Origin: a virus
Length of the DNA stretch: 37,324 nt
Reading direction: 5' to 3' (one strand)
IMG/VR virus record: IMGVR_UViG_3300025102_000099
Location: 1 to 37,324 of that record
The position numbers and the translations under genes were made by a program. The notes beneath the pieces are model-generated. The model searched no databases. It worked only from the letters and a program-made list of their open reading frames with translations, and was not told where the DNA came from. The first letter of the stretch is position 1, and each line of letters begins with the position of its first letter. Shown here piece by piece: positions 16,474 through 18,390 of the stretch.

Positions 16474-16986
16474 ATGAAATTTGATAAAGAAACGAAAGTT
16501 TTTATGGAAACCTACGATTTAGACGAAAATCTATTTTGGGATTGTCATGGAAGCCCTATCCTTTTGCATAGAGGTTGGCTAAAAGTAGCCAATAAATTAG
16601 GCATTGCAGATTACGAACTTACCGAGATAGAATTTAATAGCCAAGCAGGAATTTGTGTTATCAAATGCTCTGCTACGTTAGACGGAATTACTCATACAGA
16701 CTACGGGGAATCTTCCCCAAAAAACAATACCAATGCTTATATTTGGGCAATGGCTATCAAAAGAGCAAAAGACAGAGTTATTAGGGAATTTACAAATGTG
16801 AGTGGTGTAGTTTATTCTGACGCAGATTTAGTAAAAGGAAAAGACGGAAAACTGCAAATGGCAGATAAAGTCGATGCTTTTGAAAGAACAACAGATGAAC
16901 AAGTAGCCGAAGCTATTGCAGAAGTCAAAAACATAAAAAACAAAAAGGTTATAAAAGATGAAAAATCTAAATCTAAGAAGCAGTAA
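16474..16986 (+). CDS. Rad52-like single-strand annealing protein
   Basis: 170 residues. The pattern FWDCHGSPILLHRGWLKVANKLGI, then beta strands, then GESSPKNNTNAYIWAMAIKRAKDRVIREF is the layout of Rad52-superfamily annealing proteins: a strand-rich core followed by a helix with A-x-K-R-A-x-x-R. The C-terminal tail is Lys-rich. It would anneal single strands produced by the exonuclease encoded immediately downstream, a Red-like pair. The start has AAGGAG nine bases before it. The family assignment is from motif reading only. Confidence 0.65.
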   Translation: MKFDKETKVFMETYDLDENLFWDCHGSPILLHRGWLKVANKLGIADYELTEIEFNSQAGICVIKCSATLDGITHTDYGESSPKNNTNAYIWAMAIKRAKDRVIREFTNVSGVVYSDADLVKGKDGKLQMADKVDAFERTTDEQVAEAIAEVKNIKNKKVIKDEKSKSKKQ

Positions 16987-17632
16987 TTTTATAAATTATA
17001 TTTTTGGAAAATATGTTTCTCGGGAAGAACAGTTAGCACTTGATTTAGAGGGAAAAGAAAGAGAAATCGAGGGAGATTGGCAAAAATACATAATGAATTA
17101 TGGGAATCTTCACGAAAAGCATGGAATTGCAGAATGGGTTGTATGGGCAGAAGAAATGCCAAACTATATACTCGATAAACAAAAGTCGTTTTCCGTCCCA
17201 AATTGGCTCGATTTAGACCAAGAAGAAACAATTAGTCTAAGTAGCACTCCTGACGGGATAAAATCAGATTTTAGCTGTATTCTTGAAGTCAAATGCAGTA
17301 TGGGTGGCAAGTCATGTTATAAAGATTTACCAAAAGATAAGCTTCCTCAAATATACGGGCAACAAATGGTGTTGAATAGTTGGTTAGAAAGCCAAAAAAA
17401 CAAAGAAAGAGTAGAAAAAACTCATTTAATTAATTGGACACCGAATCACACTAAAATTTGGGAATGTAAAAGAAACGAAGAATTTGAAAATTATCTTAAA
17501 AAATATTTAGAAATATATTCATGGGCATTACTGAATGAAAAAGATGATGAATTAAAAAAACCAATAGAACAATTTAAAGGAGAAATAGAAAAAAGTATTA
17601 GCTTAATATATGAAGCTAAAGTATGTGTTTAA
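16958..17632 (+). CDS. YqaJ / lambda-type exonuclease (PD-(D/E)XK)
   Basis: 224 residues; the start overlaps the annealing protein by 29 bases. The motifs are an N-terminal GNLHEKHGIAEW (Glu at about residue 50), SSTPDGI (Asp near 97), ILEVKCS (Glu-x-Lys near 110) and LPQIYGQQMVLN (near 130). This order of residues is that of the YqaJ and lambda exonuclease family, which resect double-stranded ends 5' to 3'. With the upstream annealing protein it forms a recombination module for genome concatemers and repair. Confidence 0.8.
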   Translation: MKNLNLRSSNFINYIFGKYVSREEQLALDLEGKEREIEGDWQKYIMNYGNLHEKHGIAEWVVWAEEMPNYILDKQKSFSVPNWLDLDQEETISLSSTPDGIKSDFSCILEVKCSMGGKSCYKDLPKDKLPQIYGQQMVLNSWLESQKNKERVEKTHLINWTPNHTKIWECKRNEEFENYLKKYLEIYSWALLNEKDDELKKPIEQFKGEIEKSISLIYEAKVCV

Positions 17633-17649
17633 AAATAAAGTGTTAACAC
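17628..17649. repeat. Palindromic element 3
   Basis: Left arm TTTAAA overlapping the exonuclease stop region, 6-base spacer, perfect core at 17640. It lies 10 bases before the -35 of the structured-RNA promoter. Confidence 0.75.
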
Positions 17650-17659
17650 AGAGAAGGGA

Positions 17660-17688
17660 TTGATGTCGTTAGTTGGGACAGTTATACC
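17660..17688 (+). promoter_or_regulatory. Sigma70-like promoter for the structured RNA
   Basis: TTGATG at 17660, 17-base spacer, TATACC at 17683. It has the same -35 hexamer and spacer length as the promoter at 21007. A GTGTTAACAC element ends 10 bases upstream. A transcript would begin near 17695 and run into the stem array. Confidence 0.6.
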
Positions 17689-17694
17689 TCGAAA

Positions 17695-18205
17695 GAGATG
17701 TAGAATACTATTAACAATGGCTCTTGCGTATAGATGAAACCATTGGGCATTAATAGGGATAGATAGGTAATAGCATACAAATTAATTGTATTGGTCAGTA
17801 TGCAGACACTTTACAAACCTATCTATCCTTAATGAATTGCCTAGTGAAATAGACAAAAGGAATTGTAAACAATGGAAAACGGCTAGGTAATGGGATAGAT
17901 AGGGAGCAATGGTGTAGGTATACCGACTGCGACTAAGGATATGCAAACAGAAGCAGACCAAGCATACACCTATCTATCCTTAATGAATTATACATAACAT
18001 GGGAGTACGCAAGTGTTATGTATGGGTGGGTGTAATCTAGAATATGCACTCACCTTAATGAATTGCTCATGGGGATATAATGGACATGAGTATGGGATAG
18101 GTAGGCATAGATGGTTGGTGATTCTTAGTCCTTGAAAGCCAACATAAAGACTACCAAGATGACTATGTATGGAGCAAAACTAGTCTATCTATCTCTTAAT
18201 AAATT
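17695..18205 (+). ncRNA. Candidate large structured RNA: four-unit stem array with pseudoknot
   Basis: No ORF of note covers this 600-base gap, yet it is full of exact complementarity. Four units each hold a small hairpin, then a long-range stem, then the linker TTAATGAATT. Small hairpins: 17715-17720 with 17740-17745; 17839-17844 with 17882-17887; 17990-17999 with 18014-18023 (10 bp); 18065-18071 with 18085-18091. Long stems: 17757-17768 with 17817-17828 (12 bp); 17893-17903 with 17969-17979; 18025-18032 with 18047-18054; 18094-18104 with 18185-18195. Linkers start at 17829, 17980, 18055 and 18196. Unit 3 uses a different stem sequence that still pairs. Unit 4 has crossing helices (18114-18118 with 18139-18143; 18126-18130 with 18149-18153). 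Local G content is higher than around it. It may belong to a known class such as GOLLD or ROOL, which I cannot test. Confidence 0.75.
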
Positions 18206-18231
18206 AACAAGGAGATATAGGAGGATAACAA

Positions 18232-18390
18232 ATGAGTGAAAAAATAACATATCATGAATATGGAGATATCAAAACCGAAAACATCAACGAATACGGGGAC
18301 ATTATAAGGCTTGACAAGAATATAAAAGTTTGTCAATATTTAAGTATTGAACAAACAAGGAGAAGCCAATGGCTAAAAAAGACAGAATAA
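18232..18390 (+). CDS. Hypothetical 52-aa protein downstream of the structured RNA
   Basis: The start has the strong site AGGAGG seven bases upstream, directly after the last linker of the RNA array. The product is polar (MSEKITYHEYGDIKTENINEYGDI..) with an internal repeat EYGDI. It overlaps the next gene by 22 bases in another frame. Function unknown. Confidence 0.6.
   Translation: MSEKITYHEYGDIKTENINEYGDIIRLDKNIKVCQYLSIEQTRRSQWLKKTE

Follow-up and report, generated by a model that had tools for sequence, protein, structure and literature searches.

What occupies a gap of about 600 bases in a phage genome that holds no gene but repeats its own architecture? The question arises from the virus record IMGVR_UViG_3300025102_000099, which was analysed as a whole (37,324 bases, 34% G+C) and is called the window here. 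From the letters of the sequence, an original prediction had described in this gap a four-unit array of structured RNAs with a shared linker, in which each unit is closed by a long-range stem and carries a different payload.

The gap and its phage

The gap measures 599 bases and lies between a co-directional 224-aa gene (16958–17632, + strand) and a 52-aa ORF that starts with the ATG at 18232. This ORF is preceded by the ribosome-binding site AGGAGG at 18219–18224 (site and ORF together 18219–18390, + strand), the site that had been noticed just downstream of the array. The upstream gene is common to near relatives with one, two, or four units, and had no match in Pfam or PHROGs. As expected for a gap described as gene-free, no ORF of at least 60 aa lies wholly inside it, the longest one seen having 59 aa, a TTG start, and the minus strand. 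Homologous modules also differ by single-base gaps. The array thus does not show the conserved open frame of a protein-coding region, a frame that the original prediction had named as counting against itself.

The window encodes terminase, portal, and ejection-type proteins, and the names of these protein families suggest a P22-like podovirus. Among 428 records, the best match of its terminase was that of Pelagibacter phage EXVC032P Baldr (61% identity), which points to SAR11 bacteria as the probable host of the window phage.

Four units of the array

Four RNA units fill most of the gap, and the array is about 550 bases long. The plan of a unit is a hairpin domain (A module), a domain closed by the standard stem of the GGGATAGATAGG/CCTATCTATCC type (B module), and the linker TTAATGAATT. 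Stems and linkers were located at all four units, so that the array stands as predicted; its extent had to be revised, because the first domain of unit 1, also present in other phages, is 93 nt long and not the small hairpin proposed for every unit, and the array therefore starts near 17662, about 33 bases before the predicted 17695.

The A module of unit 1 (17662–17754, + strand, as are all features of the array) is a 93-nt structured RNA of the A0/A6 family with the closing stem GATGTC/GGCATT. Copies with 0–4 ungapped mismatches over 93 nt were found in L003, L005, L006, L043, L053, and L095 (L numbers label the loci compared), and in the alignment with the A6 family the closing stem shows compensatory changes. 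In the B module (17756–17828), the standard stem GGGATAGATAGG/CCTATCTATCC (17756–17767 with 17817–17828) encloses a 50-nt payload, whose cluster is also present in L003, L006, L015, L023, L024, and L025. The linker TTAATGAATT follows at 17829–17838, where it fits the RNase E motif RN/WUU as GA/AUU. Unit 2 opens with the hairpin GCCTAG...GCTAGG (A module, 17839–17888), which among the loci compared occurs in the window and L003 only. Its B module (17892–17979) has the standard stem (17892–17903 with 17968–17979) around a 65-nt payload that is also found in L015, L025, and, partially at the contig end, L003, with a variant in L096; the linker TTAATGAATT is at 17980–17989.

Units 3 and 4 depart from the standard stem in the manner predicted. 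In unit 3, the hairpin ATACATAAC/GTTATGTAT (A module, 17990–18023) is followed by a B module (18024–18054) with the divergent stem GGTGGGTG/CACTCACC (18025–18032 with 18047–18054), which differs in sequence yet still pairs, with one G-T, and by the linker TTAATGAATT at 18055–18064; no copy of either module was found among the other loci compared. Unit 4 consists of the hairpin CTCATG/CATGAG (A module, 18065–18091) and a B module with a long payload (18094–18195), in which both stem arms are changed (GGGATAGGTAG at 18094–18104 with CTATCTATCTC at 18185–18195) and pair with two G-T wobbles, G-U in the RNA. The last linker, TTAATAAATT (18196–18205), continues into the leader AACAAGGAGATATAGGAGG. 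Within the window the unit interiors are unrelated, as had been claimed, whereas other phages carry the interiors of units 1, 2, and 4 as well.

The 21-mer CCTATCTATCCTTAATGAATT, composed of stem and linker, has two copies, and in 100 shuffles with up to three mismatches allowed the largest number was 0. The linker alone with one mismatch was found 19 times against 13.2 expected, a number reached in 6 of 100 shuffles and not clearly above chance. The 526-nt array RNA folds at −157.3 kcal/mol (z = −6.7), and none of 100 shuffles folded as well. A search against Rfam, proposed with GOLLD, ROOL, HEARO, and OLE in mind, gave no match in the window to any of the full 4227 families at the gathering threshold, these four being taken as included, and nothing credible at a relaxed threshold; ARAGORN found no tRNA in the window.

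Related arrays in viral contigs

Two pattern scans of viral contigs yielded 28 and 66 stretches. With the window included, the parser recognized 123 B modules in 75 arrays on 73 contigs and 50 payload clusters, drawn by a loose k-mer rule under which some clusters may be one family (B17 and B18 look related by eye); an earlier clustering run had given 46 clusters of 115 modules. One B module was present in 38 of the 75 arrays, two in 28, three in 8, and five in 1, all lower bounds because many contigs are fragments. The IMG/VR contigs with arrays appear to be marine, judging from their numbers and relatives.

The B modules are 35–172 nt long, start with GGGATAGATAGG, and end with CCTATCTATCC; their interior varies, and TTAATGAATT or a variant of it comes next. 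The A modules are diverse RNA domains with a closing stem of their own, mostly followed by TAAT. When perfect stems were sought on the array strand without a linker requirement (about 38), the next sequence was mainly TTAATGAATT (23) or TTAATAAATT (7), many of the contigs involved having been fetched via the linker. Some last modules have divergent ends, such as TTTAAATTAACA in L004, L022, L026, L027, and L035. The stem-linker word was confined to one region each in 16 of the 19 records searched; it had no match in Baldr, in Pelagibacter phage EXVC031P Hodr, or in G014, which has an array with a variant ending.

The count of 123 modules leaves out window units 3 and 4, with their divergent or G-U-rich stems, as well as L005, L010, L013, L022, L027, and L035, where the module ends differently, and, of the 66 contigs found by the stem-linker pattern, L038 and L074, where the pattern occurs without a module and apparently in coding sequence, and L069, which meets the contig end. 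The duplicates L001, L002, and L028 were removed before counting. L097, on the same contig as L006, was removed from the 123-module count, and its single module remains in the mismatch, promoter/linker, and neighbour-gene counts; L003, from almost the same phage as the window, was retained. Two of the 75 arrays (L014+ and L053+) run in the reverse direction to the main array of their contig and were kept in the count, although they are probably chance matches. The AG family, an A-module family, was left out of the array strings and neighbour-module counts and was counted by a separate module search.

Beyond these contigs, the cultured phages Hodr and Baldr had no array by pattern, module search, or AG model, and comparing whole arrays with cultured phages and plasmids by DNA similarity gave nothing credible. 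Matches of about 40–50 nt in a Brevibacillus phage and Bacillus phage G were weak, lay inside annotated genes, and were rejected; L082, in a Chlamydiae MAG and the sole match in the genome collection, is without linker and was taken as chance. One weak match was accepted as real, namely a distant copy of an A module in the single-cell marine virus AG-345-A17. This AG module stands alone, with no array or linker, in the single-cell marine virus and in one other contig (L091 2971–3046 and L094 6182–6257). In Rfam, 14 other loci matched only tRNA at the gathering threshold, and two arrays searched at a relaxed threshold (E up to 5), that of the window among them, gave nothing credible. A gap in Hodr (L092, 12030–12376), where no array module was found, folds as a long structured hairpin at −109.5 kcal/mol, a value without shuffle control.

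tRNA-Asn as a module

ARAGORN detected tRNA-Asn (GTT) in 2 of 39 loci and in 0 of 46 further loci. A scan for the tRNA 5ʹ end preceded by GAATT found six contigs, including both ARAGORN loci; as this pattern includes the linker end, the scan is blind to tRNA copies elsewhere. In all six contigs the tRNA follows a linker within the array, with differing neighbours, and where the contig continues (five of six) it leads into CAGTAATGAATT or CAGTAATAAATT. Because L098 and L101 represent almost one locus, about five of the tRNA arrays are independent. The copy in L024 scores 72.7 bits in Rfam. Read by eye, the tRNA modules have no encoded CCA, so the transcript would have to be cut at the next linker for the tRNA to work. 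A tRNA in the same array is thus a property of six contigs and not of the window, and neither it nor the exchange described below was part of the original prediction. A common small A module, GCCTAGTGATAGGT, resembles tRNA-Asn with the middle removed, which is a resemblance only.

Exchange of modules between phages

A relative of the gene upstream of the window array is encoded at eight loci, of which six are 99–100% identical over the whole protein, one is partial, and L008 is 49% identical and has no array at that place. Near relatives that include the downstream side differ in unit number: L004 and L005 each have a single unit, L006 has two, and L002, which matches the window without a difference over 660 bases, has four. 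In L004 the unit 1 payload is retained behind a different first domain, indicating that modules can be replaced singly.

The payloads recur as discrete units in other arrays, in line with the predicted different payload per module, and their company changes. Payload B3 (10 copies) has five kinds of preceding and five kinds of following recognized module, payload B11 (12 copies) three and five, and the A0/A6 family (17 copies) nine and eight. The A hairpin of unit 4 is identical over 26/26 nt in L046, L065, and L081, and the interior of its B module over 85/86 nt in L039, L051, L055, and L060. The terminase of the L065 record is 80% identical to that of Hodr, while L060 has a third terminase type, 40% identical to Hodr's. 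Since the unit 4 modules are common to phages with two other terminase types, modules cross between otherwise distant phages, and by these comparisons the window array is a mixture of modules found in various phages.

Neighbouring genes and promoters

The nearest ORFs of at least 50 aa belong to 24 families upstream (69 genes) and 31 families downstream (61 genes), and none of these families is constant beside the arrays. Homologues of Hodr genes 030 and 031 (29–38% identity) flank the array in L046, L065, L072, and L081. In Hodr itself, where there is no array, the two genes overlap by 32 bases as annotated; this is consistent with an array gained in one lineage or lost in the other.

The commonest upstream neighbour is a small basic protein family, with 12 of the 69 upstream genes (L015, L018, L023, L025, L026, L031, L043, L053, L058, L066, L067, and L095). 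An 83-aa example from L035, MGYNKGYYEQNK..., had no PHROGs match. The small genes beside the arrays vary between relatives (downstream in L005, L026, L027, L035, and others) and share a leader like AAATTAACA.GGAGATATA ahead of the start codon. As this leader resembles the array linker, the latter may serve more generally as a junction sequence.

Of 69 arrays, 18, several of them close relatives, have a TTGACA-type promoter in the 220 nt ahead of the array, against 3.7% of random windows and 2 of 69 on the opposite strand. In eight arrays the −10 box ends 8–11 nt ahead of the first stem, so that the RNA would start at the stem. The promoter predicted just upstream of the window array was not found: on the + strand from 17500 on, there is no sigma-70-type promoter ahead of the array.

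Such promoter positions would also suit 5ʹ leader elements of the downstream gene, with the mRNA beginning at a stem and its stacked hairpins stabilizing or regulating the message without giving separate RNAs. Many arrays do end about 10–45 nt from the next ORF. This explanation accounts poorly for 31 families among the 61 nearest downstream ORFs, for payloads that recur as units while changing place and order, for a complete tRNA as one unit in six contigs, and for the one to four units in near relatives of the window. We consider it unlikely, though deserving of attention.

Evidence for structure at the RNA level

If the arms paired only in DNA, G-T and A-C mismatches would be about equally frequent, and an excess of G-T therefore points to RNA of the array strand. 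Under a selection rule that is neutral between the two mismatches, 69 distinct B modules contain 39 G-T and 8 A-C mismatches (p = 5.5e-6 if the modules are independent), and 44 distinct arm pairs contain 33 and 8 (p = 1.1e-4). These arm pairs also hold 30 double changes that still pair, compared to 8.8 ± 2.5 after shuffling, a number reached in 0 of 2000 shuffles. A preference of the module finder for paired arms inflates the double-change contrast, though not that of G-T with A-C, and related modules are not independent in either statistic. That arms co-vary and G-T exceeds A-C in relatives bears out the earlier argument for RNA structure from pairing kept despite sequence change.

Covariation among homologues, the lack of which had been named as refuting the original prediction, was seen in two A-module families with co-varying closing stems. 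In the AG family (A4 alignment, including the distant copies in AG-345-A17 and L094), 100% of cells are paired in two helices and the covariation score exceeds all 500 shuffles, but doubly changed pairs number only 2 of 10, which was equalled or exceeded in 90 of 500 shuffles. In the A0/A6 family (A3), the closing stem is fully kept with two doubly changed pairs, 3 of 17 pairs are changed on both sides (reached by 188 of 500 shuffles), and two proposed crossing helices are weaker, with 88% and 76% paired. The counts of further pair types were reached by 90/500 shuffles for the AG family and 500/500 for the A0/A6 family, and both structures were derived from the same sequences as were tested. 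Conserved loops (CTTAATGAG, CTATTAACAATG) occur next to stems that change, which suggests selection on the payloads themselves.

The asymmetry of G-T over A-C and the joint changes, which point to a transcribed strand, bear on another explanation, namely that the repeats are a DNA junction or boundary system or small non-autonomous mobile elements, in which inverted repeats aid recombination and RNA structure is incidental. The near-identity of the unit 4 parts (26/26 and 85/86 nt) in phages with other terminase types would fit such elements, as would the overlap of the flanking-gene homologues in array-free cultured Hodr and the likeness of the linker to the leaders of the neighbouring small-gene cassettes. 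The interiors, however, are wholly different, unlike copies of one mobile element, and no neighbour gene is constant among the nearest ORFs. As the whole explanation a DNA element seems improbable, a little more so than a leader; as a secondary role it is compatible with RNA cassettes and could coexist with them.

Comparison of the sequences thus shows RNA-level structure, modularity, exchange between phage groups, and the membership of a tRNA, and it supports the original prediction of modular structured RNA with a different payload per module.

A proposed mechanism of linker cleavage and release

Our preferred reading, to which we assign a probability of roughly 0.6, is that the array is a cassette array of small structured RNAs in phages with a probable SAR11 host, horizontally shuffled, cut at the linkers, and giving stable small RNAs. 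Stem-closed RNA domains of both kinds, A modules with a stem of their own and B modules with the standard one, would be the cassettes, and in some phages tRNA-Asn would be one of them. The cassettes would be transcribed together on the array strand, in some phages from a start right at the first stem, and host nucleases would release them by cuts in the single-stranded AU-rich linkers. The cutting enzyme would most likely be RNase E, acting at UUAAUGA/AUU, while RNase P and a 3ʹ nuclease would complete maturation of the tRNA. The short identical linkers and stems would double as points of cassette gain, loss, and swapping between phages, and the released RNAs would probably act as stable small RNAs during infection.

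RN/WUU is an RNase E motif from Salmonella data (PMC5222698), and in the alphaproteobacterium Rhodobacter sphaeroides AU is enriched around part of the sites (PMC6238624); we assume that RNase E is present in SAR11. The motif occurs in all four linkers of the window and in 113 of 120 linkers overall against 15.6% of random 10-mers, which is to be read as a fit and not as enrichment, because the modules were selected for a linker like TTAATGAATT, which holds the motif. Linker cleavage, the enzyme, and any action of the payloads are thus what we infer from sequence, and payloads for counter-defence or host takeover are a guess. Several points speak against the cassette reading: linker conservation could come from recombination rather than from cleavage, the window lacks a recognizable promoter, some last modules end differently from TTAATGAATT (as with TTTAAATTAACA), and the leaders of small genes resemble the linker, which is perhaps a general junction sequence.

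More tentatively, and with less confidence than in the cassette array itself, we suggest that SAR11 phages share a standardized pool of RNA cassettes, in which a common adapter stem and cleavage linker are set on unrelated folded RNAs, including a tRNA. Any payload would fit any array, a host nuclease would release it, unrelated phages would exchange it, and the RNAs would probably serve host takeover or counter-defence.

Comparison with known systems

With tandem short RNAs and variable payloads in a fixed frame, the arrays resemble type III antitoxin or guide arrays. That they work as RNA antitoxins, decoys, or guides with one dedicated adjacent protein is nevertheless very improbable, as no protein family is constant beside the arrays, the units are unequal in length and sequence, and Rfam matched only tRNA in the loci searched. 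Type III toxin-antitoxin loci contain tandem short structured RNAs, as the arrays do, and cut them from one precursor. Their near-identical repeats and single toxin family were not found here, where there are 50 payload clusters and 31 downstream families.

Integron arrays also consist of ordered, exchangeable units with short conserved folding boundary sequences. Integron cassettes are genes, whereas the array units are short RNAs with no constant neighbour gene family, and no dedicated integrase is constant among the nearest neighbours (24 upstream and 31 downstream families). Phage T4 makes RNAs C and D, stable RNAs whose role is unknown, from the transcript of its tRNA cluster. The likeness lies in small RNAs made together with tRNAs from one phage transcript, which for the arrays is a prediction; T4 has two fixed RNAs among several tRNAs, whereas the arrays have many families, one tRNA per array where present, and a standard closing stem and linker.

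GOLLD and ROOL are large structured phage RNAs of unknown function, often near tRNA islands, and the GOLLD linker region sometimes holds tRNAs (PMC12286853). The arrays are likewise structured RNAs of phages, in six contigs with a tRNA inside, but GOLLD and ROOL are each a single large conserved fold, in contrast to many short interchangeable domains. No match to the covariance models of GOLLD, ROOL, HEARO, and OLE was obtained, either at the gathering threshold (window and 14 other loci) or at the relaxed one (two arrays). In Pelagibacter ubique, candidate structured RNAs were reported from GC-richer gaps of the SAR11 genome (PMC2704228); these lie in the host genome and the arrays in phages, and the main text of that report contains no word beginning with "phage". 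A listing-level search of the open-licence literature found no description of such arrays. The parts, namely phage small RNAs, tRNA clusters, and RNase E processing, are of known kinds, and the arrangement is new, since neither GOLLD and ROOL nor the T4 RNAs have interchangeable units with a common adapter stem.

To our knowledge, little is understood of how phages control SAR11 bacteria. These bacteria are among the most abundant on Earth (PMC7029224). If SAR11 phages do share such a pool of cassettes, the arrays would be an RNA counterpart of gene-cassette arrays and would show phages trading non-coding parts. The pool, with its dozens of families of structured phage RNA that had no Rfam match in the loci searched, would then form a large new source of functional RNA. 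The design predicts that RNA ends lie in the linkers and that any payload works once plugged into the frame.

A further repeat in the window

Another short sequence, GTGTTAACA or TGTTAACAC, occurs at 14 places in the window, mostly in gaps between ORFs (11138, 14947, 17640, 19135, 19908, 20973, 21609, 22081, 22187, 22948, 23338, 23409, 25375, and 25522), whereas 50 simulated sequences with matching dinucleotide composition held 0.4 copies on average and never more than 2. The repeat resembles an operator or stoperator-type site, and the copy at 17640 sits immediately ahead of the array.
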